Positions 3,945 to 64,000 of a DNA stretch of 64,000 nucleotides are shown here, piece by piece. Position 1 is the first letter of the stretch, and the number at the start of each line of letters is the position of its first letter. The notes beneath the pieces are model-generated. The model saw only the letters and a program-made list of their open reading frames with translations. It had not been told where the DNA came from and did no database searches. This stretch comes from Eunapius fragilis (taxonomy: Eukaryota > Porifera > Demospongiae > Spongillida > Spongillidae), in NCBI GenBank assembly GCA_963681505.1, contig OY811973.1, positions 5,552,128 to 5,616,127 on the forward strand, written 5' to 3'. Both the position numbers and the translations under genes were made by a program.

Positions 3945-4930
3945 TCATCTCGGAGTTGATTGTGGTGTCATACCTCCCCCATGCCTGCACGGTGACCAAG
4001 AGGATCGATCAAGAGCAGTGTTGGGGGAGAATGGGCATATGGGCAAACCGGAAGTATCCAACCCCAGCCACCACCTAATGGCCATCTGGTAACATGGCCA
4101 TCTGGAACTCACTACATGGACTCCAGGAACAAGCCCAAAACCAGGGGAAGGGACCACCGCAAGCCAAAAGGAAGCATGAGGAGCTGCCACCGACAGGAGG
4201 GTGAGCTGTTGGCTGGGGAGGAAGATTCCAACAAGATGTGGAAATGTTGGACTTGGGTCATTCCTGACAAGACCTTCTGGGGAATGGGAGAGTCCAGAGT
4301 AGAACTGATCAAGATGGCAAGCCTGCACCAATAAGTATATTTATTTCTAAGTTGTCCGAGGTATTACCAGAGTCAGCCAGGTCTAAGTGTATGAGATGTA
4401 TGGAGCAGATTATCTAGAGTTATTTGAAAGAGCCAGTAAAAAGTTGGAGACTGGGTACTGGAAGATTGAAGATAGAGGGAGACCTGGGTATTGAACACTG
4501 CAACTGCCAGCTGTAGATGGATGTTATCAGCACTGCCAAAGCCTGAGAATTATAGGGAAGCAATGAAAGTAGCAGCAGCCAAACCACCAAACTGCGGTCC
4601 AATGCGTGTAAAAAGTTGGAGACTGGGTACTGGAAGATTGAAGATAGAGGGAGACCTGGGTATTGAACACTGCAACTGCCAGCTGTAGATGGATGTTATC
4701 AGCACTGCCAAAGCCTGAGAATTATAGGGAAGCAATGAAAGCAGCAGCAGCCAAACCACCAAACTGCGGTCCAATGCGTCATCAGTAACATTGATGGCGG
4801 AACACATTGCAAAGCACTGCTTGACCTCCTCATCAAAGACCTCAGAGCATCTGAAGCCAGGTTTGGTGGGGTGACCCTTGCTATGTGGACCATCCTGCAG
4901 AAGCTACCACACATGTGCAACAGGGTAATT
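3945..4930 (-). pseudogene. Decayed reverse transcriptase remnant, copy B (opposite strand)
   Basis: On the minus strand, near 4260-3960, LLSVAAPHASFWLAVVPSPG and RWWLGLDTSGLPICPF correspond to the same protein region as WLAVIPSKGLNLNLEPEEFQ in copy A. Near 4925-4790, CGSFCRMVHIARVTPPNLAS and then SDALRSLMRR correspond to the region of copy A that reads FDEEVHHYFSD. The two copies abut tail to tail at about 3930-3945. Stops and frame changes make it non-functional. It contains the 172-bp tandem duplication at 4436-4779. Confidence 0.65.
4436..4779. repeat. Tandem duplication, 172-bp unit, two copies
   Basis: The unit starting GTAAAAAGTTGGAGACTGGG at 4436 repeats from 4608 to 4779 with only about one substitution seen (AAAGTAGCAG versus AAAGCAGCAG). 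It lies inside the minus-strand RT remnant and looks recent. Confidence 0.93.
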
Positions 4931-46100: not shown

Positions 46101-48038
46101 CAAACGGACTACTTACCGTCAGCCTCAAGTTGTTTTTCTTTTTGAAAACCCTGTTACTGATAATCATGTTCCTTTTGCCAAACAGCTTTTGGATTACGAA
46201 GAAGAAAGACAATCTGGGGGAGAAACTATCCCAAAAGGGGTAGTTGGTGGGGGTGGTGGTAACTCCACAATCCAGGAGGAGACCAAGAGGATTGTGCAGC
46301 TGTTGGGCTCTTTCTCAAGTGCACTTACTGGTGGGGTAGGAAAGGGAAGCCAGCACTGCTTAAGAGGGCCCCTGAGCAAGACATAATACAACTACCTACA
46401 GGAGGAACAGTTATGTGTATTCAGTGTCACAAGTCATACTAACGGAGCGTAGGAACTTAAACAGGATTGTCCAATATAAATTCACCTTACCTTTTATATA
46501 TATACTGGTATTTAGCACTTCTTTTGGTTCTGTTACAATTACATGTGCTAAATATAGGATTTTTGTCTCATTTTCCCAAAACCTTGTTCCCTTCCTTTTT
46601 ACACCACCTTTGCCTCCAATTTCTATATCCCACCAAATTTCTCGTTAAAGAATGTTTTTCTTTACTTGTTTCCTCTTTTTTTTTGGTGGAAGAATAATAC
46701 ATATATATCAGCTCATTCATTTGCCATTGAGAATAGGTCCCCCGCATATATATGTACATATGCATATTATCCACTCATGTTGGGGGTATCATGAGGCCCA
46801 CTCATTGTCGACCATTTTAGGCAAATGGATGGATGAGATCACGGCACCATAACACACACATGATATTGCTATCATCTTTGCATCAACACAACAACAGAAT
46901 TAATGAACTGGATGCCAGTGTTTATCAAGTCTAATAGCACAGTTACACAGCATATGTGGGCAATGACTGTTCTTTGACATGTGATGTATGTAACCTATCA
47001 TTCATTGTGTCATCTGGGCGCATTGTAGCAACTTGTTAATTTCACCAGACACACAGACATAACGCTCGTCGATTCAAGGTCTGCTCTGTAGCTGTCACGA
47101 ACAGACACCCGCTTTGTTTCAGGATCAGCCTTGTATTGAACGCGGGAGGACTACTCGTCGTCTTGATTTTGGAGGTATCTCTCTCATTGTTTTGCTCTCC
47201 TCTTTTGTTGACGCGAAGGCATTTTGAAGAAAACAACTTCGCTAGCCAAAAGTGGTGAACAAAACTGTGCTCAGATGAAATCCCACCTGTTAATAACGCT
47301 GCTAAAAGTATGAATGTCGCCATGGGAACGGTTAAATATAGCACTCCATATTACGTAATGATTACGTTTATCAAGTTCACATATCTGATACCTGAAGATG
47401 TCCATCCAGGAGATTCTAAAGCGATTGGTTTAACTTGCACTCTTTGCATAATGGTGTGCATAATGGACGCTGCACCAATATTGAATTGATATGTGATATG
47501 CATGAGGCAGAGCATATGACGTTGGAAGTTATGAATATTTTATATTCCCTGCATCCATCAGTAAGCTTTAAAAATAAAAAAAAGTTTTATTACTTAAATT
47601 TATTTATTTCTAATCAGGCTTGTCCAACGTCTAGTCTCTTCACAGGTTCTAGTAGTGAAGAATGCCATGCAATACTCAGGTTAGCTTGAATATTTCAAAA
47701 TAATACATGTAATATCTATGTTATTCATAGTTTTGTAAAAGAAGAAATGAGCTATTCTTTAAGCACTGATGATCCAGGTGTGATACGGTGCAGTATTGTA
47801 GATGAGTACATTTTAGCAACACGCATAGGATTGTCTGAAGAATTAATAATTGAATCTGTGAGTTGTTTGATACTGGATGTGACTGCATTAAAGAGCTTAT
47901 TTTTGGTTACTGCTTAATCTTGAAATGCTACAGGTTTTTTATGCTGCCAAGGCATCATTTCTACCTGATGATGAAAAGCAGGAACTAATAAGAGACCTAA
48001 CAGAAAAGATTACTTTATACAAGGCATCAGCACTGTGA
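27110..48038 (+). CDS. ADA: Adenosine deaminase, paralog 2 (intact, transposon-swollen introns)
   Basis: Second ADA gene. Exons: 27110-27139, 27242-27303, 27470-27586, 35198-35418, 35476-35663, 39524-39625, 47618-47679, 47731-47857, 47934-48038; 1014 nt, 337 aa. The exon boundaries and phases match paralog 1 one for one; exons 2, 4 and 6 are the same length. Active-site motifs are present: VELHLHADG (H14, H16), VHAGESG (H195, E198), RIGHGYH (H218), SLSTDDPG (D274, D275). No stop or frameshift in any exon, so it is probably functional despite introns of 7.6, 3.9 and 8.0 kb that carry foldback, hAT, DIRS, piggyBac and pogo-like remnants. Exon 5 is far more similar to paralog 1 than its other exons. 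The donor of intron 1 (GTTACG) is weak. Whether the large introns splice efficiently cannot be told from sequence. Confidence 0.93.
27210..27227. repeat. C18 run serving as polypyrimidine tract of ADA-2 intron 1
   Basis: Eighteen C followed by TTTGTTGTACGCAG at the exon 2 acceptor (exon starts at 27242). Confidence 0.9.
28147..28176. repeat. G30 homopolymer
   Basis: Thirty consecutive G, the longest single-base run in the window. Confidence 0.95.
28861..28941. repeat. Tandem repeat, 20-bp unit, four copies
   Basis: Unit ACAGGGCATGCTTATTAAAG repeats about four times with one or two substitutions per unit. Confidence 0.9.
29357..30514. mobile_element. Foldback element FB-2 (perfect 4-bp TSD TACA)
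   Basis: A 1158-bp element with long inverted arms. Ends GGGTCAATCCATTATATGTC and its reverse complement; TACA on both sides (29353-29356, 30515-30518). Inner blocks CACATCTTCAGATCTTGATG and GCATCAAATTGAAGCTCC occur in both arms and resemble FB-1 and FB-3. The centre (about 29710-30150) is unpaired. No transposase. Confidence 0.93.
30727..32108 (-). pseudogene. DIRS-like retrotransposon remnant (RNase H region)
   Basis: Minus-strand pieces in order: 32108-31902 with QPLWHTPSAVKVVFSDVSD, resembling the start of RNase H in DIRS/Ngaro-type tyrosine-recombinase retroelements; about 31730-31400 with DYDHWQFNPELFYYLNEAWG then PYSIDKFADNYSTQLTRF and PGTEAVDTFT; 31440-31390 with SAPFWPLLCP in another frame. 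The minus-strand ORF at 30963-30727 follows and may belong to the next domain. Stops and frameshifts break it. RT and recombinase cores were not found. Clade assignment is by memory of motif order. Confidence 0.65.
32109..33408. other. ADA-2 intron 3, no feature recognised
   Basis: A minus-strand open frame of 125 codons at 32576-32953 shows no family resemblance and biased composition; I treat it as chance. Confidence 0.5.
33409..34387. mobile_element. Foldback element FB-3
   Basis: A 979-bp element with inverted arms; ends GGATCATTGTATATCTTG and GGTATACAATGACCC. Flanks TCAA (33405-33408) and TAAA (34388-34391) are a one-mismatch 4-bp duplication. The inner block CACCAAATTGAAGGGCCTGA and its partner CAGGCCCTTCAATTTGATGC correspond to the ATCAAATTGAAGCTC block of FB-1 and FB-2. 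It lies directly beside a hAT transposase remnant. Confidence 0.88.
34400..35120 (-). pseudogene. hAT transposase remnant (ZMYM1-like)
   Basis: Minus-strand reading gives, from high to low coordinate, LKQSGFLCLCIGVNKTSEQ then HYMVEFTSQLNKG, GQCYDGASNMTNQG, CPTRWTVHAEALTSINALQT across a frame change, and RIGGVIAQMESL followed by FGVELGRIRFNMVDTLSRSL. This is the order of the hAT DDE-region blocks in ZMYM1/'52 kDa repressor'-type transposases. Several stops make it inactive. It ends just before ADA-2 exon 4. Confidence 0.75.
35897..36148. mobile_element. Hairpin MITE, about 250 bp
   Basis: Left arm AAACATTCTCTATGAGAAAG to AAAATGTAAT and right arm ATTACATTTTCCC to TAGAGAATGTTT are reverse complements with about 100-bp arms, including TTTGAAGGCAATTGGTG. 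Possible TTAC duplication flanks it. A diverged half copy is at 46540-46675. Confidence 0.8.
36149..39523. other. Rest of ADA-2 intron 5; dispersed repeat fragments
   Basis: No gene recognised. Segments around 36560-36730 and 38760-38900 are diverged copies of one repeat (AAGAAG.., GGGACTGGGT, TTTTTGTTCTCTA) that recurs near 52240-52380 and, more distantly, inside the palindrome arms. The block 36285-36330 (GAAGGCATTTTGA) resembles 47215-47240 and the palindrome foldback. Confidence 0.55.
39727..41640 (-). mobile_element. piggyBac-like element, internally deleted, TTAA TSD
   Basis: Outer bases TGTACGAACG and CGTTCGTACG form a short terminal inverted repeat, flanked by TTAA at 39723-39726 and 41641-41644, the piggyBac target signature. 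Both subterminal regions are packed with GGGAAC/GTTCCC motifs in direct and inverted orientation (39740-39782, 41451-41488, 41603-41620), likely transposase-binding sites. It encodes the disrupted transposase at 40159-41378. Inserted in ADA-2 intron 6, 98 bp after exon 6. Confidence 0.93.
40159..41378 (-). pseudogene. piggyBac transposase, centre missing and frameshifted
   Basis: From ATG at 41378 the ORF begins MAPGLKVGDQVKAKAVNVLG, has an acidic stretch, then reaches SPLEYFCAMFPMVEATFWIE and TNTRLAEMKRKP, the N-terminal part of the piggyBac transposase domain. It then jumps with a frame change near 40760 to ATFFGITVIDAMLAYNYE, normally near the domain's end, and to a Cys-rich tail (RRKCLCSLGETTQC). 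The catalytic Asp-containing centre is missing, so the protein cannot transpose. The frame change at the join suggests an internal deletion. Confidence 0.85.
41645..42829. other. ADA-2 intron 6, GC-richer unrecognised stretch
   Basis: 42000-42750 is richer in G/C than its surroundings and has several open frames on both strands, suggesting a decayed coding transposon, but I recognise no domain. Confidence 0.45.
42830..44588 (+). pseudogene. Decayed pogo/Tigger-like (DDE_1) transposase
   Basis: Pieces in order: 42940-43100 KKRGQPLLNVLSDNLDKMLQ and VVTASIVMAAAQGI, then EYGGHI (N-terminal region of DDE_1-type transposases); 43690-43790 SGDFLPLQLIYKGKTNRCHP and FQFPADxDISHAQ (DDE region); 44040-44140 pieces ending in GENTSALLIIN; 44270-44588 WYLGEITKQIQGKDVESVEL and KWLNIYISDNPQFIVNGFIQ then AGISELLDG (C-terminal block). 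Many stops, for example TAG at 44403. The DDE segment is present twice (about 43619-43793 and 43864-44020), a partial internal duplication. Confidence 0.78.
44663..45019 (-). CDS. HIRAN-domain-like protein, 118 aa
   Basis: From ATG at 45019 (MYGAGEYEIEACVHGYHVYQ) the ORF shows the HIRAN pattern: a first strand, GEQLTFTRKTGNPTDCYAVA, VIKDSAIIGHLPKNI, then a basic tail (RSTTRRTG, KLKQYMKLTKL). HIRAN domains bind DNA ends or damaged DNA in HLTF-type helicases; stand-alone versions occur in invertebrate transposon-rich loci. It is antisense inside ADA-2 intron 6 and directly beyond the dead pogo-like element, so it may be cargo or a passenger ORF of a transposon. The frame is open, unlike its neighbours. 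An upstream exon is possible since the frame stays open to 45094. Confidence 0.6.
   Translation of the reverse strand: MYGAGEYEIEACVHGYHVYQAIWLAAIGEQLTFTRKTGNPTDCYAVAVIKDSAIIGHLPKNIPKICSLFLQRGGSIQCTVSGPRIFNRSTTRRTGNNLYTALHKEITKLKQYMKLTKL
45095..46539. other. ADA-2 intron 6, no gene recognised
   Basis: AT-rich. Open frames at 46189-46391 overlap on both strands, are Gly/Pro-rich by composition, and are not convincing. Confidence 0.5.
46540..46675. repeat. Diverged half copy of the hairpin MITE at 35897
   Basis: Shares the ordered blocks ATTTTCCC, CTTGTT, CCTTxCTTTTTACACCACC, TTTCTCGTT and AAGAATGTTTTT with the right arm at 36047-36150, continuing as TTACTTGTTTCCT on both. No matching left arm was found here. 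Confidence 0.7.
46676..47617. other. End of ADA-2 intron 6; repeat-family fragment
   Basis: 47205-47300 (GACGCGAAGGCATTTTGAAG then CTTCGCTAGCCAAAAGTGGT) is a diverged copy of the arm sequence of the foldback nested in the terminal palindrome (54545-54600). Otherwise non-coding. Confidence 0.55.
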
Positions 48039-48567
48039 AGGATCCATCGTGATCCTAGATCTATTTACTAAGTGTACACATTATAACTATTAATTTTATG
48101 CAAAGTCACAGTATGCATATATAATGATAATAATATTATTACGGTGCTAGAGATGTGGACCAAATTTATAACTTTTTATACGGGACTCGAGGTAGTGATA
48201 AGGGACAGCGCATATTTTTTCAAGTTTCAAATTACTTCATATTCTAACACACCCATGTCCTTTACAAATTCTTTCTTACGCACTAGAAATTTTTCTGACC
48301 GTCATGGTGTGAATTTCCTACCCACTCTTGTGGTGCAGAGGAGCAATCTCAGGCACTACTTGTTATGTCAAACTTAAAATCACCCAAAGACTGGACTGTA
48401 GCTCGACTAATGTCGTCAACGTAATCCAGTGCACCTATTGCCAACTTCAATACTTTTAATTACGCATACATTTTTAATTGCACTTGTCAACTTTGATGTT
48501 CCTTCCTGGAAAATTTTATAAAATGCACTAGGTCCTTTTTCGCTGCCTCGACCCCATATATATATAT

Positions 48568-48816
48568 GGGACTGTGTTCAGCTAAATCACCCTTATGGTA
48601 CTTTTTCAAAATTTCCAGAACAAGCAAAAGAAAAGTAACGCTCACATTGAAATGTATGGCTAATTATAAATTCAGTGCCTAATAACTTTGTGATGGATAG
48701 TCCGATTTAGGATGCGTAAGGACCATTTGACAGAAGCTCATGGGTGTTCAAGGAAAATCAAAAAATTTGAAAACTTGAAAAACTAGCCAGAAGGGTGATT
48801 CTGCTGGACACTGTCC
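48568..48816. mobile_element. Small inverted-repeat MITE inserted in a (TA)n tract
   Basis: Begins GGGACTGTGTTCAGCTAAAT with CACCCTT and ends AAGGGTGATTCTGCTGGACA with CTGTCCC, about 30-bp imperfect TIRs. TATATATATA lies on both outer sides, consistent with TA target use of Tc1/mariner-type MITEs or with TA-microsatellite targeting. Confidence 0.75.
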
Positions 48817-49032
48817 CATATATATATATATATGTGGGACAGTATCAGTGTTGTCTGAGAAAATCTCACATCGCTATATTCATACAAAAGTTATAAAAAT
48901 GATTCACGTTTGAATCGCTATAACTTCCGTACATGCCCTGAGATTCTTCAATGAAGAGGTAAGGCATTGATTTTCTTCCTGCATAACGGTGGGCGTACCT
49001 GATACACACTGGCAACAGGCACAACTTTAAAG

Positions 49033-49248
49033 TTGCTGCCCTCCTCTGGTCACCATAGGCCCATGCTGCTAGTGTTGCTGCCCTCCCCTGGTCACCATAG
49101 GCCCATGCTGCTAGTGTTGCTGCCCTCCCCTGGTCACTATAGGCCCATTCTGCTAGTGTTGCTGCCCTCCCCTGGTCACCATAGGCCCATGCTGCTAGTG
49201 TTGCTGCCCTCCCCTGGTCACCATAGGCCCATGCTGCTAGTGTTGCTG
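49033..49248. repeat. 42-bp minisatellite, about five copies
   Basis: Unit TTGCTGCCCTCCCCTGGTCA continuing to GCTGCTAGTG. 42 is divisible by three and neither strand has a stop, so it reads as a 14-residue repeat (LAAWAYGDQGRAAT on the minus strand). No flanking gene supports a real protein. Confidence 0.93.
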
Positions 49249-49749
49249 GATCCTGTGGTAAGTGTGCATCATGCAATGCAATTTTTATTATATAATCCTT
49301 TTACCAGGGTCATAGAGACCACTTTCATTTTTATGGTTTCAAAACTCCTATTGTGGGGCATTTAACCCAGAAACAAACTCCTCTGAATTTCAAAAGGAGA
49401 CTATGATCATCTACCTGAAAGCAAAGGCTGCAGGCAAGTCAGTAATGTCTTAATGCTGCATAGCAATTATCACATTCCAATTGATGATTTAGCATCAACC
49501 AGGAGCAACCAGTTGTCTATGCACATGTCTTTAACTCTATCATAAGAAAAACATGTATCATCCTATTAACCCATCACTGCTGGAAGAAAACTGCTGCCCA
49601 CTGTGACGTTCAGCTTCTTCGAGCACACTCGCTCTGATGTACTAGCATTTACTCATGCTAACTGGATTAAACAACTTATGATCAGTTATAGACTTTCCTG
49701 ATTGTAGTATTTGAGGTTGTAATATGCGGAATCTACTGGCAATGGTTCC

Positions 49750-50310
49750 TGCTAACAATAATGCTGCACAGTATTTGGGCTGTCTGTCTACCTGTCATGG
49801 CTCTTGATTGCCAGCCCTTTTGGACTGCCATGGCTACTCCAAGCTGCTTCAGACAGGTGTGCACAAATTCCTGCGGCATTCAGAGACTAATTGTTGGGAG
49901 AACATTATTTAGCAAACTGTCCTTCCAACGTGACTCTAACCGTCTAACGTATTGTATGAATGTATTGTGAAGTGCAGCGAGTTAGGTTGGTTATGTATCC
50001 CTCTTGTGGTTGAGTCATATGGTGCATGGGGGAAAGAGGCTATGGAGTCATTTTCGAGTCTAGCCTCTCACCTAGCCATAACATCATCAAGGCCCAAATC
50101 TGCCGTTCTATCAGAGCTGTATGGCCGGCTCAATCCGAACCTAGTAAGGGTAATGTGAGGGCTATAATGTCCAGATATTACCCTCAAGATTATTTCTGAA
50201 GTGTTGTTTAGTTTTGGTCATGTTTTCCGTGTGTTTTGTATGTCCTATAATTGTATCTTGTATCAGTGAATATATATAATAATGCTATTAAAATATAAAA
50301 AATAATAATA
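49750..50310 (+). pseudogene. Reverse-transcriptase element 3' end
   Basis: The ORF at about 49952-50158 reads CSELGWLCIPLVVESYGAWG then EAMESFSSLASHLAI and VLSELYGRLNPNLVRV, the C-terminal block of the same type of retrotransposon polymerase as at 2.2-4.9 kb. About 150 bp of 3' UTR follow, ending in AAAATATAAAAAATAATAAT, a LINE-like A-rich tail. Confidence 0.65.
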
Positions 50311-51774
50311 CGGGGGAAAATGGTTTATGATACATGGAAGATAGATGATTTGGATGAACATTTATGGTACAGTTGTAGCTACATTCTGGGTCGTTAACAT
50401 AGTATGTACCAAGGTGTGTCAATTTACCTGTAACAAATCTGACTACATATACGGTACATACGTCTTACTGGTATGTACCAGAAATTAGAAGTTGGCTGTT
50501 CGTTATATTTGAAATTAGAAGTTGGCTGTTCGTTATTTTTGTTCTGTTTTGTAATTATTTCTGTCGTATATAATACAAGTACGGCGTTTTCGCTTCTTGC
50601 AAACTTCTGGTTCTGTTCCCCTTCTTGGCTTCTTCAGCAGAGCGAGCAAATTCGTAAGACTTGGATTCAGCTGCCATCAGCCTGACTAGTACGCGCAGGC
50701 GCCTAGAATCGAGCGTGTTGGCTCGGTCAAACTGCTTCATTTATGCGTGCATAACGCTACAGAGCATGAAAGTGCACGGTGTCCAGGGCTAGCTTAATCT
50801 GAAACGCAACCCTTCCTTGCTGACTTCTGCACACGCACAGATTTCAAACATGCACCCCCTTGTAGCTACATTTATTAGTATTTACCGACATGTAGTACTC
50901 TCATTGGCCTACTAAAACCTCTTTATTTTCATTGGTTATAGTTGGTTCTACAAAATAATATCCATACAAAATAAAATCCATAAGTCACACGGACACGCAA
51001 CACACACACATGCACACACTCACATTCATACACAACCTCAGATCAGAGCAATTGGAGTCATTTAATTCTGTCAGAATGCTCCCACATGCTTCGTTTGCAA
51101 TTTCCTGCTGAGTGGACGGTTTGAGAAGCTATGCACCACTATTCAAAATATTTATTGCAGTACGCACATATTGATGGATCAAAAGGCAAGATGCAAGACT
51201 CGCTACTTTGACATGAAATTGCATTCAAAAAGACTTCGACAAGCCAGATTAATACAGTTCGATTATTTTGCCAAAACGTGTAGTTTGGAAACGATTTTCC
51301 TACTAGTCATTAAAATTTGGCATTCGAAGTAAGTTATGATACAATGCCCCCGAGACCTATCAGGCCTCAGATACATCTAGCGTAGTGAATGAATATTGCA
51401 CGTGTACTATGATGGGCAATATGTTTCTTGAATTAGTCATGAAACGAATATATGATTGGCAAGAAGAAAATATATGGTCCCGGAAATATAACGTTTGATA
51501 GAGGTCATCATTAAAAAAGGGCAATGTCAAACATTTAAGCTTTATTCATATATTTGAAGATGGACGTCCTTCCAGGAGATTCTGAAGTCAAGTGATTGGT
51601 ATAATTAGCGCTCTTTAATATCATTCATTCTTTAATATCATTCCTACCCGGAGTTACCGTACTGCCAAGACATAATGGCGGAGAGAACTATTTGGCCGAG
51701 CCAAAACTACTAAATGGCGATTTGCAATTGGCGGAAGGCTCAGAATCATTAAATTTATAATTGGCGGAAATGAT
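50311..51774. other. Intergenic, no confident gene
   Basis: A 61-codon minus-strand ORF at 50555-50740 (MKQFDRANTLDSRRLRVLVR start) could be a first exon but matches nothing I know. Contains a direct duplication GAAATTAGAAGTTGGCTGTT at 50480-50535. Confidence 0.4.
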
Positions 51775-51981
51775 ATGATTAATGTTGGCGTAGCTGTTGA
51801 TCATAATTCGAAAGCGGACTCACTGGGGGATTCGGGGGAGGATCCTCAGCAGAGAGAGTACGGGGGTAGGATACAGCTCAGTGCCTTCCATGAATTGAAC
51901 AGTATCAGTTGTATAGCGGGGAGAAAGGAATTATTTCGTATGGCTGACCCCGCTACCGGGTATATAGTAGTACCAGTATGA
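51775..51981 (+). CDS. Possible exon of a C1orf53-like (DUF5522) small protein
   Basis: From ATG at 51775 the ORF reads MINVGVAVDHNSKADSLGDS, then LSAFHELNSISCIAGRKELF and RMADPATGYIVVP. The last part resembles the ...DPxTGYxVxT block of C1orf53 proteins, which normally continues into a CCGxxCRHCPY motif. That downstream motif is not visible here; possible donors are ATA|GTAGTA or GTA|GTACCA near 51965. So this is at best a partial gene or an exon remnant. Resemblance is short and from memory. Confidence 0.35.
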   Translation: MINVGVAVDHNSKADSLGDSGEDPQQREYGGRIQLSAFHELNSISCIAGRKELFRMADPATGYIVVPV

Positions 51982-52872
51982 ACACTACAGGCGCCGTATG
52001 TCTGTGCATTGTATAAAAAGCACATGTACATGTACGGTAATCATTTAGCATGGCAAGATTAAGAGCCATAGGACTAGGGCCCTATATTTACACAAATGTC
52101 CCTCCCCCCGCCCCCTTCCGCGACGCCGTGAATAACACATGTTGGCGGAAAAATTTATATATTAAGTTGATGGCGGAGCCTTCCGCCAAATAGTCGCCGC
52201 CAGAACATCTTGTCAGTACGGTATACTCACCCGAGTATAAGATGACGACGAAGAAGAATTGGCCTGGGGACGAAGTAAAACACGAACTTTTTTGTTCTCT
52301 TAAAGTAAACAGTAACAGTTAAAACATTAAAATGACCATCTTTTCCTTCTGGTTCGATAGCAACAAAGAGCTACACTATCCGTTTCTTGGTACGTGAGTG
52401 TATCGCGGGTCATGATATTCACGACCCGGGTCAATTCTTATATAGGATCTACAATTTGATATCGGTATCTTGTGTCACCATATGTGTCGTATATATTGTA
52501 TTGTCGAATATGTGTTTATTGATTTGATGGCTGGTGACCTTTCACGGGCAATCCTCTACTGTGGACTGCTCTCTATTATTTATTTTAGGCTCTTAAGAGG
52601 CCTCGCGTGAAAATCGCTAATGTAAGGTAGAAAGCAACATCGGATTTGAGCTAGTCATTACTATGTACACGGCAATATTTCATAATCATACCTATGGATA
52701 TTAAATTATTTGTTCGTTGTATTTTATTGTTTTTCTGCAAGGCAAAGCATTAATGACTTTGAAATAATTAACCGGTTTCATGCATACCCCTACTTCCCAA
52801 ATGGCAAGATTCTTTTTGTTTTGAAAGAATCTCCATTATCTATGATAAGGCAAATTATTAATGTAAAAAACC
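51982..52872. other. Intergenic, dispersed repeat copy at 52240-52440
   Basis: Carries TTGTTCTCTTAAAGTAAACA and a CACGACCCGGGTCAATT segment also seen near 32490, 54765 and 55545. No gene recognised. Confidence 0.5.
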
Positions 52873-53570
52873 CTTTAATGTCTATTGTCCTGAGCGTCCA
52901 CCCGGGGGTACAATTGGACACCCGGGTGGACAGCAAAAAAAGTTTTTGCCGTTCGGTCATGAAAGGGACCTAGTGGCATTTAACGGTACCGGCTTATAGA
53001 ACAAGTCCTTTTAGGATCGGGCCGAGATAAGTAAGGCTTAAATCCTTTCGATACCCGTAAAACGAGCCGTGCTAGCGGACCTATCCATTACGTTCCGTGC
53101 GGTATGTACATATCGTATACTAGCTACTGTACGTAAGGCACGTTATTTTTGCCCACGTTCATACAGATAGTAAAATAGCCATTTTAGTGTTTGTCAACAA
53201 AAGGTGATAGAGAGCTTTCAGCTGTCTGTTTAGGCCTATGTTTAAAAGGTCATTTAAACATAGCCTAATAGCAAACAGAAGGCTCTTTTGTTGACAAACA
53301 CAGAGAAACAGCTATTTTACAATCTGTATGAACGTTGGCAAAAAAAACTTACCTTACGTAGCTCTGTACGTACCGCACGGAGCGTAATGGATAGGTCCGC
53401 TAGCACGGCTCGTTTTACGGGTATCGAAAGGATTGAAGCCTTAGATCCTAAAAAGACTTGTTCTATAAGCCGGTACCGTTAAATGACCGAACGGCAAAAA
53501 CTTTTTTTGCTGTCCACCCGGGTGTCCAATTGTACCCCCGGGTGGACACTCAGGACAATAGACATTAAAG
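52873..53570. mobile_element. Foldback element of 698 bp with a hairpin at its tips
   Basis: Two arms of about 340 bp are near-perfect reverse complements, from CTTTAATGTCTATTGTCCTG to its complement at 53551-53570; loop near 53230-53250. Each tip contains its own palindrome, GTCCACCCGGG...CCCGGGTGGAC around GTACAATTGGAC. No coding capacity and no clear target duplication. Confidence 0.88.
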
Positions 53571-54471
53571 TTCCAACTAGAAAATGATAAGTTATTGGTT
53601 TTTCATTGTATAACAGTCGTTATGCATGACAAATTACTCATTACAGTATAAACCATGCAAGGATATGATTGGTAGTGAGTATAGTTTAATGTTGTTGTTG
53701 ATAAAGTTATAAACTTACCACATTATAAGTTGCCGTTGTATCCTCTTTGCATGGATTACTGTAGCATTTGCACACATCATATGCCGGTAAGTCTACCATA
53801 CAGATCAGATCGGGAGGGAGCAATGAGTACATCCTCAGCTGAACGCATGCAATATCTTAATGCGTTCTAACAACAGCTCTTATACAAGCATTTGATACAG
53901 AACCGAACTATGTTGTAATTAACGCAAAATGAGTCAGGCACAGATTTTTAATCGTGCATTTTATTGTCAGCATACTTAATCTCAAATGAATGGTGGTTTA
54001 GCATTCAATTTGGTGTTACATATATAGTATATCATAACCAATTGAAATATTGATTATAGCATCTATATATATATATATATATATCCATTCGTTGGATTGC
54101 AATATGAAATGTATTACGCATATTAAGATTTAGTGATGACATTTAATCCAAACTGTTTTAATATAGTTCAAGTAGTTGAACTATATTTCATTAGAACGGA
54201 TGTTATACATGTCCGGCTTTTGAGTATTTTGTTTGTAGATGAATTTGCATACCACGTGTCTGTGCAGAAGGAAATACGCCAGGAATATCGAAAACTGGCT
54301 TCGCATGATAACACAGTGGGGGATAGGATCATAACCACAATAGAATACCAGTATATCAGGCAATGTCAGTAAACTTTCAATTCCCGCAACAAGGATAATT
54401 TTATAATGTGTATTTCATTGCTTATTCAAGTTCATTATATACCCACACATACCCTCAACATGTAAAGACTA

Positions 54472-55874
54472 ATTAAAGATTAACAAGCGAAGCTGATCTA
54501 ATTGATGAATTAATCATTACTTGCTTCTTCTCTCACTGATTTAGCTCTCGACGTAAAAGCATTCTGAAAAGAAAAATATCGCTAGCCAAAAGTGGTGAAT
54601 ATCGCACAATGATTAGGAATATTAGTAATATGCTTTATATTATATATCAGGTGAATTGATACCCGGCGCAGGACACGACGATAAAGAATTAGCCTGGAAA
54701 TGAGACTTGAACAAATCATTAAAATGACAGTTTTTGTCGCAATAAAATGATATCACGACCCGCGTCAATTTCTATACGATCGTTCCTGAGAGTCGTTCCA
54801 CTTACCTGATCACTATTGCCTATTAGGATGATTAATAGTGTTGTTTCACTTGTAAATTCTAAACAGGAAGAAGGAAACATTTTATGTGCATTGATCACTG
54901 TACGTTAACCGACAAGTCAGCTTGAGATTGAGGAATGCCCAGAAAATAAGAGTTGTTAGGATTATTATTTATTGGACTATTTATACCATCACTGTATAAT
55001 CTTGATGTCACAGAGGCACAACATGCTTCGAAATGAATTGTTCAGCACATTTCGCCATGCATCTTTATCAGCTCAAATCCAATGAGGTGATGTGATGGCC
55101 TAAATAGGCCAATAAATAATAACCTTTATTTTCCGTTCAATCCTCGATCTCAAGCTGACTTGTTCGGTTACTTGGCAAGCGCATAAATTGTAACAAATCC
55201 TTTCATATGTAGGTTAAAATGCCATTAACTAACATTAGAACCATATCATATTATATACCAAAACTCTGTCGATCACTTCGATCGATGAAATGTATGCAAT
55301 CACCATATTTGTTACAACGATGAATGTTTAGTTACCAATGTTTAGGCATTTCAACGATATGTCCGCTTAACATACCAATCAATGCACACATAAAATGTTT
55401 GCATTTCGTGTAGTTCCATGAAATGTGTGCTTAAAACCTTTCGCTCTTACTGTTTAGAATTATAATTAGATTGAGTGTGAACAATTAATATCTGGTAAGT
55501 GTAACGATTCTCAGGAACTATTGTATATAAATATACGCGGGTCGTGAGAACAGTGACTCGCGTATAACTGGCGATCCAGAAGACACAAACGATAATTTAA
55601 AATGTTGTTTGAGTCTCCAAACCGTTTAAGAGAAGAATTTCCAGCCTAATTCTTTACAGTCGTCTCCTTCTAGGCTATAAATATATAAAAAAAGCATATT
55701 ACTATATATACCTATCATGGCGACATTTGTGTTATATTCATTTGATTGCTGTTTTATTCACCATTTTTGGCTAGCGAAGTTTTTACGTCAATAAAGGAGA
55801 AGTAAACAATGCTAGAAGAAACAAGTAAAGATTAATTCATCAATTGGATTAGCTTCTCTTGTTCTTATTCTTCA
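54472..55874. mobile_element. Nested foldback, left copy
   Basis: About 1.4 kb with imperfect inverted arms of its own: GCGAAGCTGATCTAATTGAT at the left and ATCAATTGGATTAGCTTCTC at the right; CGCTAGCCAAAAGTGGTGAA against TTCACCATTTTTGGCTAGCG; GACAAGTCAGCTTGAGATTG against CGATCTCAAGCTGACTTGTT. Centre near 55050. Arms are clearly diverged from each other, unlike the near-identical big arms. Confidence 0.87.
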
Positions 55875-56285
55875 ATGACGACGGCTTATCGGATTTGAAA
55901 TCTTAATGCATCACGAAATTTTTACCAAATGTGACAAGCGCACCCTGAAACTTTGAAAGCAGTGCAACCTATATTAGCTTATATATATAGATACGGTCAT
56001 CTATGCTTATGCTTTTGTTCCCCCACGCAATATGTAATACTAGCGTTGAATTAGCATACAAATCACATCCCATAATGCATTATCTATCGATTGTGAAAAG
56101 CTGTCGATTGTTAAAAGCTGACGATCGATCAATCATAACAGATCAATATTGGAACGCCATTTGGGTCAAAATTGATCATTTCTGTAATTCGATCAAACTT
56201 TTTAGATCGACGTAATTTTCTAACCGATCGCTATATCTCATTCGATCATGCGGATTTGACACTAATTTTTTTTTGATGGGATTAA

Positions 56286-56400
56286 ATCGATGGACATCGA
56301 TTGATGATCAATCGATCGACATCGATTGATGATCGATTAATCGATCGACATCGATTGATGATCAATCGATGGACATCGATTGATGATCAATCGATCGACC
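56286..56400. repeat. ATCGATTGATGATCA minisatellite, left copy
   Basis: Short units of ATCGATTGATGATCA and GATCGACATCGATTG repeat about four times. Each unit is itself palindromic and rich in GATC/ATCGAT. Its mirror is at 61341-61455. Confidence 0.9.
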
Positions 56401-56550
56401 ATCTTCGATCGATCACAGATCTGGATCATTCGACGGGGGAACGATTTGGTACGAGGTTAGGCTGTTTCCAGAATCGGTATATAGAGACTGGGACTTTAGT
56501 AATAATATTCATCTTCGCTGCACAGGAAGGTGCTACATTAAAATACGATC

Positions 56551-56652
56551 AGGAGCAGGAGATGCTACCTAAACCAGGAGCAGGAGCAGGAGCAGGGCTG
56601 GCCAGAGCAGGAGCAGGAGCAGGAGATGCTACGACGGACCAGGAGCAGGAGC
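56551..56652. repeat. GGAGCA hexamer repeat, left copy
   Basis: CAGGAGCAGGAGATGCTACC units and pure CAGGAG runs. The same motif family, inverted, reappears outside the arm at 58185-58290 and, in the arm copy, at 61089-61190. Confidence 0.88.
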
Positions 56653-57340
56653 AGACGATGAAATCGAACTGCAGATAATAAAATCATTATTATTTCCGAT
56701 TTGTATTATCTCCGATGTAAGTAATGTACATCAACCATACAAACGCAATCTTTGCTTCAAACACCATGCGAGTTCGCATGCGGGTGAGCACACGTGCCTT
56801 CTAGTTCAGTCCCTTCAGTAATGGAGCAGGCGAAGTGATTTTTGAGAATCTTGATCTTGATGGCGATCAAGTGCTCGAGATCTTCCAAATTATACTACAA
56901 AGTAACGAGACTCTGTTGCGCAAATTCCGCTAGTGTTGCCAAAGGATGTATTTTAATTGCACGATGATTGTTTGAGCGGAGCAGATAAAATCGGTATGGT
57001 TTAAGAAGTGCATCGCTTATGTATTCGAATTTGTATGCCGTTTAAGCTTCCACTTCCCAGGCCCCCTATAGATGTGATCAGTATCGCTGGGTGACAAAAG
57101 GGGTGTATAATATAAAATATGAAAAAGAAGTCAAACGCTATTGATAGTGACCAGTTCATCAAGGAGGTGATATGCGGTCTCGACAATTTGTTATTGAATT
57201 TCAACAACTTATACATAACAAGAATTTGATGTTGAGTGGAATTGATTATATAAAGAATCTCTTGATGTCCTACTATTAATGCATTCTTAGAAACAGTCCT
57301 GCTGAAAATGAACTCAAAGCATCTTCGTATTTACGTAAAG

Positions 57341-57775
57341 TTAGTGGATGATATACACAATGGGAAAACCATAACACCTAAAAACTTGAAGGAAAAAGAC
57401 AAACTGCTTTCGATCGGAAGTATTCAAACAGAACGGAAACAAAGTACCGTTTAGAACCTGAACATTCGATTTTGGAACAGATGTTCTCTGTCCCCATGCA
57501 TTGGGATGAACTTTCGGAAATGCTGCACGTGGTCGTTTCCCTGACAGCCCTCCATTTGATGAAGAAATTGATATTGAAAAATTGAGCACCTGGAAAACAG
57601 AAGTTTTTTTAATCGATGTTATGGACTGTTCAGAAGTTTGAGCTGGAGCCCCTGGACGATCCCACTTGCTATTGCTTCTTTTCAGGGAGACTCGCTTACT
57701 AATAACACTTCCTAGAAAAAATTTTTTGATGGAGCATTTATGTACTGGTGAGTTACTCTTAAAAGTAAGGAGCAT
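57341..57775 (-). CDS. Unrecognised 144-aa ORF in left arm
   Basis: Begins MLLTFKSNSPVHKCSIKKFF, is rich in Ser, Lys and Asn, and contains SSNGGLSGKRPRAAFPKVHP. A second ORF (57712-57897) overlaps upstream in another frame. The identical protein is encoded in the right arm at 59966-60400. No domain recognised; conservation between arms reflects duplication, not selection. May be a decayed transposon gene. Confidence 0.3.
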   Translation of the reverse strand: MLLTFKSNSPVHKCSIKKFFLGSVISKRVSLKRSNSKWDRPGAPAQTSEQSITSIKKTSVFQVLNFSISISSSNGGLSGKRPRAAFPKVHPNAWGQRTSVPKSNVQVLNGTLFPFCLNTSDRKQFVFFLQVFRCYGFPIVYIIH

Positions 57776-58168
57776 CTCATTTCACTCCTGCTGTTATGGG
57801 CCAAAGAAAGTTGTGGTTTTACCATCGACTCTTTGAAACTGACAAAGTACGAGTGACACCTATGAAAGAAGCTAACATGTTTGGACAAAAGGGACATGTA
57901 TTGGTTAAGTTTTCATCGTGCATGCATACGTATACAGCATTTTTTTGATCAATTATAGAGGTCTCATTATATATTAAGTCTATTTTTTTGTTTCCTCAAT
58001 TACTGTGTTTGCTGTTAAATGAGGAAACTATGTTTTGTTAATACAATAAATAGTCATTTCTATATTACTAGAAGTAATATCTGCAGTTGAGTTATCATCC
58101 TTGCACCTGCTTCTGATACGTCCTTATATAGGTAGCTACGCCTACTCCTGCACTTGCTCTTTTAGGTA

Positions 58169-58759
58169 GCATATACTTCTCCTGATCCTTGCTACTCCTG
58201 CCCCTTCTCCTGCTTCTGCTCCTGGTTTTAGGTAGCATCTCCGGCTCCTGCTTCTGGTTTTACGTAGCAACTCCTGCTCCTGCTTCTATACAGTGCACAC
58301 GAATTTTTTAACTATTGAACCATACGAGCGGCAGACAAGTGGTACATTAACTTAATAAGCACCTCGTTTCGATGAAGAATGGATATAGCATATAGTTTAG
58401 CGTAGCTAGCTGTATTCCTTGTGTGTGGGCATTCAAGTGGTGTACGCTTATGCGTGTAAAGATTAAATGGCTCATGAAGTGTTGCTCGTTTACACTATAA
58501 AACCTATGAGCGAATAAACTTATTACTATATGTTAGTTATATGTAGTTACTTTCAATGCTTGTTTGTACATGTTGGATGACTGTTTGTACGCCTGCCTGT
58601 TTGAGATTAGAGCAAAGGAACCGAATGTGGAGAACGCACCCCTATTAAGAAACACTAACATTAATCACCGTTATGGGTTTACTCGATGAATCTAATTGAC
58701 AGAGTCTGTTTCTACTAGCCGTCGAGCACAATAAAAAATTCCACTAGCATTTGGCAAGC
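58169..58759. other. Left part of palindrome spacer
   Basis: 58169-58290 is a degenerate repeat of GCTCCTGCTTCTGGTTTTAG-type units including GTAGCA. The rest is AT-rich and non-coding. Confidence 0.6.
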
Positions 58760-59515
58760 TAGGTGTGCAGCACTGTGCTCCTTTGCAAGCCCCTGTTTTC
58801 ATTACTGCTTCGCAGGGTTTCTTTGTGCGCTCTAATGCAGCCTTTTCCTCTAGAGCTGCCTATCTTTTTCTGCGTCGCTCCTCTTTCTCGGCTATCTCTC
58901 TCCTCTTCATATCCTCAGCAGCCTTAAATTCATCAATCCATTGTGCTGAAGTCATGCACTGAGTTGAGCCTTTCATACGCTTAAAAGTAGGGGTAGTGTT
59001 GTCCTCTGGATCCAAGCTTTCTCCTTCTGAATCATCAGTTGTGCAACTTTGTGGAGAGGTTGGTTCAGCATGTTGCACCTGCTCAGGACGTACTGCACAT
59101 GCAGCCACATACATGGAATGGTACTGAATGGACAATTTCAGACGTAACTTCTTCTGTTGTCATTGCAACAGCCTCAATATCTACACGCCTCTTCACCTCT
59201 TGAGCCACACCATCCTCTATAAAGCTTACAATGGTGACTTGATCAGAAAGTGCTGCCCCCGACACACCACATGAAGCCATTCTTGCATCATGGGGTCCTA
59301 CTGTATCTTCAGGAAGAGCATCTACCGCACGTAGAGGAGACAGGCCTGTCTTTTGGAATGCCGACATGATAGGCATCATTGATTATCATTGGAACATCGT
59401 GTGGTAGAATAAGATGTGATACTGAATGTTTGGTCATTGCAGCAGAAGAAAGCATCTTTAGTGGACCAAACACTCCTTCCCACACCAGATGGCTGGTGTG
59501 GGAAGGCATGAGCAC
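58760..59515 (-). pseudogene. DDE transposase C-terminal fragment in palindrome spacer
   Basis: Minus-strand pieces in order: 59515-59450 HTSHLVWEGVFGPLK, the block that follows the catalytic region in DDE_1/pogo-like transposases; 59379-59320 MSAFQKTGLSPLRAVDALPE, resembling their GFRKTGIxPxNxxAIP block; and 58960-58860 EEKERRRKR preceded by WIDEFKAAEDMKRRE, a basic C-terminal helix. Several frame changes. No N-terminal or catalytic part remains within the 1.4-kb spacer. Confidence 0.65.
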
Positions 59516-59563
59516 AATGTCAAGCTGTTTGTTTGGTCCACTAAAGATGCTTTCTTCTGCTGC
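59438..59563. repeat. Short inverted repeat next to the right-arm junction
   Basis: GCAGCAGAAGAAAGCATCTT plus TAGTGGACCAAACA at 59438-59471 is repeated in reverse complement at 59530-59563. Between them CACACCAGATGGCTGGTGTG forms a second inner palindrome. The right arm begins only 9 bp later. Confidence 0.9.
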
Positions 59564-59965
59564 ATCTTATTATACCTAAAAGAGCAAGTGCAGGAGTAGG
59601 CGTAGCTACCTATATAAGGACGTACCAGAAGCAGGTGCAAGGATGATAACTCAACTGCAGATATTACTTCTAGTAATATAGAAATGACTATTTATTGTAT
59701 TAACAAAACATAGTTTCCTCATTTAACAGCAAACACAGTAATTGAGGAAACAAAAAAATAGACTTAATATATAATGAGACCTCTATAATTGATCAAAAAA
59801 ATGCTGTATACGTATGCATGCACGATGAAAACTTAACCAATACATGTCCCTTTTGTCCAAACATGTTAGCTTCTTTCATAGGTGTCACTCGTACTTTGTC
59901 AGTTTCAAAGAGTCGATGGTAAAACCACAACTTTCTTTGGCCCATAACAGCAGGAGTGAAATGAG

Positions 59966-60400
59966 ATGCTCCTTACTTTTAAGAGTAACTCACCAGTACA
60001 TAAATGCTCCATCAAAAAATTTTTTCTAGGAAGTGTTATTAGTAAGCGAGTCTCCCTGAAAAGAAGCAATAGCAAGTGGGATCGTCCAGGGGCTCCAGCT
60101 CAAACTTCTGAACAGTCCATAACATCGATTAAAAAAACTTCTGTTTTCCAGGTGCTCAATTTTTCAATATCAATTTCTTCATCAAATGGAGGGCTGTCAG
60201 GGAAACGACCACGTGCAGCATTTCCGAAAGTTCATCCCAATGCATGGGGACAGAGAACATCTGTTCCAAAATCGAATGTTCAGGTTCTAAACGGTACTTT
60301 GTTTCCGTTCTGTTTGAATACTTCCGATCGAAAGCAGTTTGTCTTTTTCCTTCAAGTTTTTAGGTGTTATGGTTTTCCCATTGTGTATATCATCCACTAA
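59966..60400 (+). CDS. Unrecognised 144-aa ORF, right-arm copy
   Basis: Protein identical to that of 57341-57775 on the other arm. Same caveats apply. Confidence 0.3.
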   Translation: MLLTFKSNSPVHKCSIKKFFLGSVISKRVSLKRSNSKWDRPGAPAQTSEQSITSIKKTSVFQVLNFSISISSSNGGLSGKRPRAAFPKVHPNAWGQRTSVPKSNVQVLNGTLFPFCLNTSDRKQFVFFLQVFRCYGFPIVYIIH

Positions 60401-61340
60401 CTTTACGTAAATACGAAGATGCTTTGAGTTCATTTTCAGCAGGACTGTTTCTAAGAATGCATTAATAGTAGGACATCAAGAGATTCTTTATATAATCAAT
60501 TCCACTCAACATCAAATTCTTGTTATGTATAAGTTGTTGAAATTCAATAACAAATTGTCGAGACCGCATATCACCTCCTTGATGAACTGGTCACTATCAA
60601 TAGCGTTTGACTTCTTTTTCATATTTTATATTATACACCCCTTTTGTCACCCAGCGATACTGATCACATCTATAGGGGGCCTGGGAAGTGGAAGCTTAAA
60701 CGGCATACAAATTCGAATACATAAGCGATGCACTTCTTAAACCATACCGATTTTATCTGCTCCGCTCAAACAATCATCGTGCAATTAAAATACATCCTTT
60801 GGCAACACTAGCGGAATTTGCGCAACAGAGTCTCGTTACTTTGTAGTATAATTTGGAAGATCTCGAGCACTTGATCGCCATCAAGATCAAGATTCTCAAA
60901 AATCACTTCGCCTGCTCCATTACTGAAGGGACTGAACTAGAAGGCACGTGTGCTCACCCGCATGCGAACTCGCATGGTGTTTGAAGCAAAGATTGCGTTT
61001 GTATGGTTGATGTACATTACTTACATCGGAGATAATACAAATCGGAAATAATAATGATTTTATTATCTGCAGTTCGATTTCATCGTCTGCTCCTGCTCCT
61101 GGTCCGTCGTAGCATCTCCTGCTCCTGCTCCTGCTCTGGCCAGCCCTGCTCCTGCTCCTGCTCCTGGTTTAGGTAGCATCTCCTGCTCCTGATCGTATTT
61201 TAATGTAGCACCTTCCTGTGCAGCGAAGATGAATATTATTACTAAAGTCCCAGTCTCTATATACCGATTCTGGAAACAGCCTAACCTCGTACCAAATCGT
61301 TCCCCCGTCGAATGATCCAGATCTGTGATCGATCGAAGAT

Positions 61341-61455
61341 GGTCGATCGATTGATCATCAATCGATGTCCATCGATTGATCATCAATCGATGTCGATCGA
61401 TTAATCGATCATCAATCGATGTCGATCGATTGATCATCAATCGATGTCCATCGAT
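61341..61455. repeat. ATCGATTGATGATCA minisatellite, right copy
   Basis: Mirror image of 56286-56400 with the same unit number, so no slippage has occurred since the arms became identical. Confidence 0.9.
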
Positions 61456-61866
61456 TTAATCCCATCAAAAAAAAATTAGTGTCAAATCCGCATGATCGAA
61501 TGAGATATAGCGATCGGTTAGAAAATTACGTCGATCTAAAAAGTTTGATCGAATTACAGAAATGATCAATTTTGACCCAAATGGCGTTCCAATGATTGAT
61601 CTGTTATGATTGATCGATCGTCAGCTTTTAACAATCGACAGCTTTTCACAATCGATAGATAATGCATTATGGGATGTGATTTGTATGCTAATTCAACGCT
61701 AGTATTACATATTGCGTGGGGGAACAAAAGCATAAGCATAGATGACCGTATCTATATATATAAGCTAATATAGGTTGCACTGCTTTCAAAGTTTCAGGGT
61801 GCGCTTGTCACATTTGGTAAAAATTTCGTGATGCATTAAGATTTCAAATCCGATAAGCCGTCGTCA

Positions 61867-63269
61867 TTGAAGAATAAGAACAAGAGAAGCTAATCCAATT
61901 GATGAATTAATCTTTACTTGTTTCTTCTAGCATTGTTTACTTCTCCTTTATTGACGTAAAAACTTCGCTAGCCAAAAATGGTGAATAAAACAGCAATCAA
62001 ATGAATATAACACAAATGTCGCCATGATAGGTATATATAGTAATATGCTTTTTTTATATATTTATAGCCTAGAAGGAGACGACTGTAAAGAATTAGGCTG
62101 GAAATTCTTCTCTTAAACGGTTTGGAGACTCAAACAACATTTTAAATTATCGTTTGTGTCTTCTGGATCGCCAGTTATACGCGAGTCACTGTTCTCACGA
62201 CCCGCGTATATTTATATACAATAGTTCCTGAGAATCGTTACACTTACCAGATATTAATTGTTCACACTCAATCTAATTATAATTCTAAACAGTAAGAGCG
62301 AAAGGTTTTAAGCACACATTTCATGGAACTACACGAAATGCAAACATTTTATGTGTGCATTGATTGGTATGTTAAGCGGACATATCGTTGAAATGCCTAA
62401 ACATTGGTAACTAAACATTCATCGTTGTAACAAATATGGTGATTGCATACATTTCATCGATCGAAGTGATCGACAGAGTTTTGGTATATAATATGATATG
62501 GTTCTAATGTTAGTTAATGGCATTTTAACCTACATATGAAAGGATTTGTTACAATTTATGCGCTTGCCAAGTAACCGAACAAGTCAGCTTGAGATCGAGG
62601 ATTGAACGGAAAATAAAGGTTATTATTTATTGGCCTATTTAGGCCATCACATCACCTCATTGGATTTGAGCTGATAAAGATGCATGGCGAAATGTGCTGA
62701 ACAATTCATTTCGAAGCATGTTGTGCCTCTGTGACATCAAGATTATACAGTGATGGTATAAATAGTCCAATAAATAATAATCCTAACAACTCTTATTTTC
62801 TGGGCATTCCTCAATCTCAAGCTGACTTGTCGGTTAACGTACAGTGATCAATGCACATAAAATGTTTCCTTCTTCCTGTTTAGAATTTACAAGTGAAACA
62901 ACACTATTAATCATCCTAATAGGCAATAGTGATCAGGTAAGTGGAACGACTCTCAGGAACGATCGTATAGAAATTGACGCGGGTCGTGATATCATTTTAT
63001 TGCGACAAAAACTGTCATTTTAATGATTTGTTCAAGTCTCATTTCCAGGCTAATTCTTTATCGTCGTGTCCTGCGCCGGGTATCAATTCACCTGATATAT
63101 AATATAAAGCATATTACTAATATTCCTAATCATTGTGCGATATTCACCACTTTTGGCTAGCGATATTTTTCTTTTCAGAATGCTTTTACGTCGAGAGCTA
63201 AATCAGTGAGAGAAGAAGCAAGTAATGATTAATTCATCAATTAGATCAGCTTCGCTTGTTAATCTTTAA
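61867..63269. mobile_element. Nested foldback, right copy
   Basis: Mirror image of 54472-55874. Confidence 0.87.
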
Positions 63270-64000
63270 TTAGTCTTTACATGTTGAGGGTATGTGTGGG
63301 TATATAATGAACTTGAATAAGCAATGAAATACACATTATAAAATTATCCTTGTTGCGGGAATTGAAAGTTTACTGACATTGCCTGATATACTGGTATTCT
63401 ATTGTGGTTATGATCCTATCCCCCACTGTGTTATCATGCGAAGCCAGTTTTCGATATTCCTGGCGTATTTCCTTCTGCACAGACACGTGGTATGCAAATT
63501 CATCTACAAACAAAATACTCAAAAGCCGGACATGTATAACATCCGTTCTAATGAAATATAGTTCAACTACTTGAACTATATTAAAACAGTTTGGATTAAA
63601 TGTCATCACTAAATCTTAATATGCGTAATACATTTCATATTGCAATCCAACGAATGGATATATATATATATATATATAGATGCTATAATCAATATTTCAA
63701 TTGGTTATGATATACTATATATGTAACACCAAATTGAATGCTAAACCACCATTCATTTGAGATTAAGTATGCTGACAATAAAATGCACGATTAAAAATCT
63801 GTGCCTGACTCATTTTGCGTTAATTACAACATAGTTCGGTTCTGTATCAAATGCTTGTATAAGAGCTGTTGTTAGAACGCATTAAGATATTGCATGCGTT
63901 CAGCTGAGGATGTACTCATTGCTCCCTCCCGATCTGATCTGTATGGTAGACTTACCGGCATATGATGTGTGCAAATGCTACAGTAATCCATGCAAAGAGG

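Follow-up and report, generated by a model that had tools for sequence, protein, structure and literature searches.

Probable origin of a near-perfect palindrome in the sponge Eunapius fragilis by recent fold-back inverted duplication

A stretch of 64,000 nucleotides from the freshwater sponge Eunapius fragilis (assembly GCA_963681505.1, contig OY811973.1, C3 in our contig numbering; C3:5552128-5616127), called the window throughout, ends within a long and nearly perfect palindrome, which raises the question of how such a structure came to stand in the interior of a chromosome. Among the explanations weighed below, we hold it to be probable that a recent inverted duplication was primed by a folded-back DNA end, that it underwent skips or deletions at its centre, and that it was captured at an inverted paralogous repeat. 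The right side of the window was extended by 28.9 kb of fetched flank (“extended” coordinates continue the window numbering on C3). The genome searched comprised 218,937,333 bp in 24 contigs, and 40 of 329 candidates were scored in the search for full-arm copies.

The palindrome in the assembled sequence is confirmed as real. Self-BLAST of the window aligned 53742-58168 with 64000-59573 in inverted orientation over 4,428 columns with one mismatch and one gap, which bears out the near-perfect reverse complementarity reported in a preliminary description of this DNA. The longest exact reverse-complement match in the 38-kb stretch around the palindrome measures 6,235 bp, against 15–16 bp in all three mononucleotide shuffles. 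The preliminary description had given the arms as at least 4.4 kb long and open at the window edge. This much stands, but the start at 53742 merely mirrors the window edge, the true start being 44174; the right arm in full occupies 59573-73186 (extended; 13,614 bp, ending at C3:5625313), and the arms are thus about three times as long as first described. The whole structure spans ~29 kb end to end and is interstitial, with the chromosome running on at both sides.

At its centre, the right copy is composed of three blocks. The first two (Table 1) contribute 47 inner bases, of which one site differs from its source, and the third, from 59573 onwards, corresponds to the arm in reverse complement, running from 58168 to 44174. 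Because the three blocks agree in orientation and order, the right copy is most simply described as a single collinear reversed copy that would have started at 59472 and skipped twice, once over 23 bp (59417-59439) at a TG microhomology and once over 1,238 bp at a GGTA microhomology that leads into the arm. Independent template switches had been considered as the source of this junction, and were dropped after block order and orientation proved collinear. Given the inner junction, most of the 1.4-kb “spacer” thus turns out to have no counterpart in the right copy, this part comprising in order the minisatellite end of a repeat (to ~58287), some 320 bp within which 58349-58467 matches seven other places at 77%, and the first part of a fragment from a DDE_1 transposon.

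Relatives of these sequences elsewhere in the genome identify the left copy as ancestral at the centre. Two relatives of the minisatellite repeat run past the GGTA point just as the left copy does, and 58608-59402, which is missing from the right copy, is unbroken in the transposon relatives. The latter, on C8, C19 and C21, extend beyond the point at which the fragment is broken off; that on C19 has a 540-aa frame with DDE_1 at E 5.5e-16. Three open reading frames (ORFs) of the fragment itself yielded no Pfam family below E 0.001, and proteins related to one of them carry PF03184.

The starting point of the reversed copy, 59472, borders a putative fold-back loop which is absent as a repeat from the right copy and has a 4-bp inverted microhomology, AACA/TGTT, at its boundary. 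Within the loop lies a 14-bp hairpin that is absent from the relatives on C8, C19 and C21. Because the left side of the stem is replaced by different sequence in these relatives, the hairpin looks like a second, short snap-back copy.

We suggest the following course of events. A two-ended break would have occurred within the transposon fragment near 59529, between the fragment and the right flank, and the 3' strand of the left end would have folded back via the 4-bp microhomology over a 57-nt loop. The folded end would then have primed reversed copying over ~15 kb, from 59472 back to 44174. The two microhomology skips (23 and 1,238 bp) near the centre may have been copying errors or later deletions, made while copying or soon after, and would have shortened the right copy, so resulting in an asymmetric centre. 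Finally, the copy's outer end would have been joined to the right flank within a repeat that carries remnants of HIRAN and DDE_1; the probable reason is that the flank already contained a diverged copy of this repeat in inverted orientation. The collinear reversed blocks, the microhomologies, the near identity of the arms and the cluster of divergence at the outer end are given by the sequence; what we infer is the break itself, how the steps followed one another, and which enzymes acted. That fold-back priming, ~15 kb of copying, the skips and capture at an inverted paralog all belong to one repair episode, with the distal chromosome kept, is proposed tentatively. The same sequence fits the reverse direction as well, in which the right end invades the left repeat, copies toward the centre, and is closed by a fold-back join.

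Table 1. Positions of the palindrome, of its central and outer elements, and of the differences between its arms (window numbering; positions above 64000 are extended)
Feature	Position	Strand	Remarks
Left arm	44174..58168	+	13,995 bp, repeat-rich; ancestral state at centre
Right arm, part within the window	59573..64000	-	Self-BLAST; alignment with extended flank
Repeat running across outer end of left arm	43849..45146		Matches C4 (87%) and C1 (83%)
Most of the “spacer”, without counterpart in right copy	58169..59406	+	Sequence comparison
DDE_1 transposon fragment, broken off at 59529	58608..59529	-	Relatives on C8, C19, C21
Putative fold-back loop, 57 nt	59473..59529		Bounded by AACA (59469-59472) and TGTT (59526-59529)
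Hairpin with 14-bp perfect stem	59475..59506 (59475-59488 / 59493-59506)		Within the loop
Right copy, first block	59530..59564	-	Exact reverse complement of 59438-59472 (35/35)
Right copy, second block	59563..59576	-	Reverse complement of 59403-59416 (13/14)
Substitution	58116/59625		MAFFT
1-bp indel	56147/61594		MAFFT
Complex micro-indel, 3 bp shorter and one changed base	49909/67830		MAFFT
365-bp gap in right arm	44969/72405		MAFFT
2-bp indel	44396		MAFFT
12-bp indel	44267		MAFFT
Four small differences	44202-44233		MAFFT

Alignment of the arms with MAFFT revealed ten differences in all, among them the one indel noticed in the preliminary description, which is real. None of the ten falls inside the hexamer array or the minisatellite, and for this reason both keep the same length in the two arms, as had been remarked. 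Leaving out the outermost ~220 bp and the 365-bp gap, there are three small differing places in ~13.4 kb. Between 44397 and 58168, again without the gap, these consist of a single clean substitution (0.0075%, with a Poisson 95% interval of 0.0002–0.042%), a 1-bp indel, and a complex micro-indel in which a base is also changed; BLAST counts 2 mismatches in this range. The outermost 806 bp of the 13,995-bp arm account for seven of the ten differences (binomial 2e-7). The 365-bp gap has CA common to its two ends, as judged by eye.

The outer end of the left arm falls within a repeat that has relatives on C4 and C1, the former encoding a piece of DDE_1 transposase (E 5.9e-09), and on the minus strand at 44666-45100 there is a HIRAN-like match (E 2.7e-05; 24.3 bits against a cut-off of 24.7). 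In the right arm the copy of this repeat, without the 365 bp, ends opposite 44174, at 73186, where a different repeat begins. The latter is a truncated element (73190-75015, extended) related to a family of elements ~3 kb in length that carry long terminal inverted repeats and have copies on C2, C5, C10 and C19. As the arm stops at TTAA, a TTAA-duplicating insertion had been considered as the cause of the right outer end; it was rejected when the element proved truncated, because nine compared ends from five loci share sequence upstream of the TTAA point, most of them over all of the 120 bp shown.

Measured against the relatives on C4 and C1, changes private to the left arm occur at 44203, 44233 and 44396, while those private to the right arm are at 44221 and the 12-bp and 365-bp gaps, although for the last of these the relatives reach only to 45146, about half of the gap. 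At 58116 the left arm is derived, according to two informative relatives (a third is not alignable there). Comparison with relatives places each of the four larger gaps (1,238, 365, 23 and 12 bp) in the right copy. Three of the four left-private changes lie within the outer 223 bp (1.6e-5); changes of this kind cannot be errors from the synthesis of the right copy. An older pair of paralogs confined to the outermost part would be expected to produce such clustering at the outer end. The clustering suggests, from admittedly small numbers, that the last ~220 bp of the right copy may be an older, diverged repeat copy that received the new strand. As the interstitial structure adjoins, at its outer end, a truncated repeat with clustered divergence, we infer capture of a second end.

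The clustering would also agree with an old palindrome in which gene conversion between the arms has preserved their similarity, sparing the outermost ~220 bp. Conversion of this kind reportedly occurs in the human Y palindromes. It has likewise been proposed for inverted repeats of C. elegans (PMC1803023; here and below, statements on published work refer to the portions of text available to us). However, the age of the centre is bounded by the transposon fragment, which differs from its relatives on C8, C19 and C21 by 20–28 substitutions in 859–1,013 columns with many gaps (~2–3% substitutions, or 89–92% identity with gaps counted), the relatives themselves differing from one another by 34–39 substitutions in 2,278 columns. 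The skips separate the inner blocks from the arm match, and these blocks have one mismatch in 47 bp, an argument weakened by the few bases involved. In addition, no host gene that would select for such a palindrome was recognised in the 15 arm ORFs tried. Only the outer ~220 bp look older. Arm-to-arm conversion is possible but not needed, and as the explanation of the present arms we consider it unlikely. As read from the sequence, the fold-back duplication that we prefer is later than the transposon insertion and, unless conversion has reset the arm divergence, this divergence would make it much younger still.

A different concern is that the palindrome is an artefact of assembly or amplification, either a fold-back chimera of the ultra-low-input library or a haplotype join made by HiCanu. 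The ultra-low-input protocol includes PCR amplification. According to the available text of the genome paper, the assembly was made from ultra-low-input HiFi reads with HiCanu and purge_dups, has 802 gaps, and reaches a primary k-mer completeness of 55.49%; the mean read of 9.85 kb (184.53 Gb in 18.74 million reads) is shorter than an arm, so that few if any reads cover a whole arm. Two junction-spanning ORFs, searched in a protein collection, brought no independent support (one matched two related proteins over ~60% of its length, the other had no match), but this outcome is uninformative, since gene prediction may pass over pieces of this kind. On the other hand, the sites that tell the arms apart are spaced at most 6.24 kb from each other, below the read length, and average reads can therefore thread each arm. 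Each arm bears private changes when polarised, the junction is templated, and there is no N in the joined 132,873 bp. A read folded back during amplification would be expected to return into the left flank and not into a new one, and one clean substitution in ~13.4 kb would be little for the haplotypes of an outbred animal, although the available text of the genome paper gives no heterozygosity for the sample. The 54 kb of left flank and ~50 kb of right flank share a single repeat match at a cut-off of 150 columns. A haplotype join in which the right flank is the allelic left flank reversed was rejected, as that one match covers 295 columns at 74%. In our view, an artefact is unlikely.

Several points nevertheless weigh against a fold-back duplication with capture at a paralog. 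The case is built on the assembled sequence of one individual, whose library, as the available text of the genome paper states, was made by the ultra-low-input protocol, and whole-genome amplification is described as making fold-back (palindromic) chimeras, although in a study that did not concern this protocol (PMC6218980). A 4-bp microhomology is by itself weak and can occur by chance, and compared with the relatives the junction has an extra TGTT and one T fewer. Polarisation was based on two or three relatives, the differences at 49909 and 56147 carry no polarity, and at 44211 both arms depart from the relatives. Moreover, because the right flank starts within a truncated repeat, the outer join could have been based on microhomology, with no prior paralog.

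Two further origins are far less probable. In an inverted amplification of the origin-dependent inverted-repeat amplification (ODIRA) or tandem-inversion type, three copies would have been formed and one later deleted. These events likewise begin at short interrupted inverted repeats (PMC4689423), but no third copy was found among the candidates scored and the structure requires none, which makes this very improbable. The other is a transposon with very long terminal inverted repeats, as might be imagined from inverted arms in a repeat-rich region. Only the two arms themselves matched at full length among the scored candidates, so no further full copy is known to us from this search. No target-site duplication is present, as the sequences abutting the outer ends overlap by just 1 bp, and the longest word common to them within 15 bp has 3 letters. 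The arm ends lie within or against other repeats, and the turning point is inside a transposon fragment. The copy search, the truncated repeat in the flank and the missing target-site duplication led us to reject such an element, which is scarcely credible. Thus, among the three options of the preliminary description, the inverted duplication fits best, the long-repeat transposon is unsupported, and the artefact is less likely.

The arms contain repeats and transposon remnants, minisatellites among them. No host gene was recognised in the 15 arm ORFs chosen for Pfam, which are a sample and not a gene prediction: one had a match below E 0.001 (HIRAN, scoring slightly less than its cut-off), two gave matches at E 0.04–0.08 that are far under the cut-off, and 12 gave nothing. 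In the window there are no Rfam matches at the gathering score and no tRNAs. Each arm carries a self-inverted (fold-back) element of ~700 bp with halves 79% identical (52873-53570 in the left arm). About five 42-bp tandem repeats (49032-49248, within 48866-49300) form part of an uninterrupted 144-aa frame made of LAAWAYGDQGRAAT units, which has no Pfam match and is present in the right arm too.

The repeat at 56550-58287 belongs to a family found at many places in the genome, with CAGGAG/CTCCTG minisatellite arrays containing a GGTTTTAGGTAGCA motif; at the present locus the arrays stand at both ends in inverted orientation, and the far end of the repeat falls inside the spacer. Among the matches listed, minus/plus pairs of these arrays lie 1.2–1.7 kb apart at C6:3019966/3021198, C12:8518770/8520412, C16:5580068/5581346 and C5:5354817/5356382, and ~2.4 kb apart in a pair on C17, while elsewhere there is a single array.

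Further away, duplications are plentiful in the right flank too, with a second inverted pair at 81542-86404 (extended, beyond the window; 1.5-kb arms, 90% identity) and smaller inverted and tandem repeats in the same region. In the left flank, a 172-bp tandem duplication at 4436-4779 is nearly exact (99%), and an open frame of 767 aa (11811-14114, minus strand) holds a TRIM/NHL-type protein of 746 aa. This protein is 81–86% identical to its three closest other relatives, and 81% to Em0005g1175a, a prefix that we take to denote Ephydatia muelleri; the Pfam accessions listed for it presumably correspond to RING, B-box, filamin and NHL.

To our knowledge, the origin of a long palindrome is usually guesswork once its centre has been altered or its arms converted. 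The sponge locus still shows its loop, its microhomologies and its skips, and the event seems recent enough to be followed step by step. If confirmed by reads, the locus would provide a sponge system for studying the formation of interstitial inverted duplications by fold-back repair, and would allow one to ask how fast palindrome centres turn asymmetric. If it should prove an artefact, it would be a warning that assemblies from ultra-low-input libraries may contain convincing palindromes. Our literature search found no paper on inverted repeats of Eunapius fragilis, and no sponge palindrome was among the titles listed.

The separate steps of the proposed event have already been described in human and yeast, and the kind of event is thus known. 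Human inverted duplications have short inverted sequences at the loop (PMC3907307), and those with a disomic spacer resemble the sponge structure in placing an inverted copy beside a single-copy loop. The inverted microhomology at the loop boundary is 2–8 bp in 13 human junctions and 4 bp in the sponge, and extra inserted or inverted sequence is seen at some human junctions as it is here (PMC3907307). Unlike the sponge duplication, however, the human cases are of large size and occur next to terminal deletions, translocations or rings, and most of their loops measure a few kb rather than 57 nt (PMC3907307).

In yeast, fold-back inversions induced by double-strand breaks are similarly primed at short inverted repeats (PMC10622511, PMC11724301). 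Large ones are stabilised later through repeats (PMC10622511), whereas in short ones, with a 41-nt loop, the other end is captured by end joining (PMC11724301). The short yeast inversions are mostly 5–34 bp, compared with a copy of ~15 kb in the sponge, and the large events are explained via a dicentric chromosome, while the sponge chromosome continues on both sides (PMC10622511, PMC11724301). The highly similar arms and non-palindromic centre are shared with the palindromes of the human Y and of C. elegans (PMC1803023), although in those cases there is sex linkage or conservation across species, together with gene pairs, whereas no host gene was recognised among the sponge arm ORFs sampled. 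In the C. elegans study, which cites earlier work on this point, long inverted repeats are said to be stabilised only after a deletion makes the centre asymmetric (PMC1803023).

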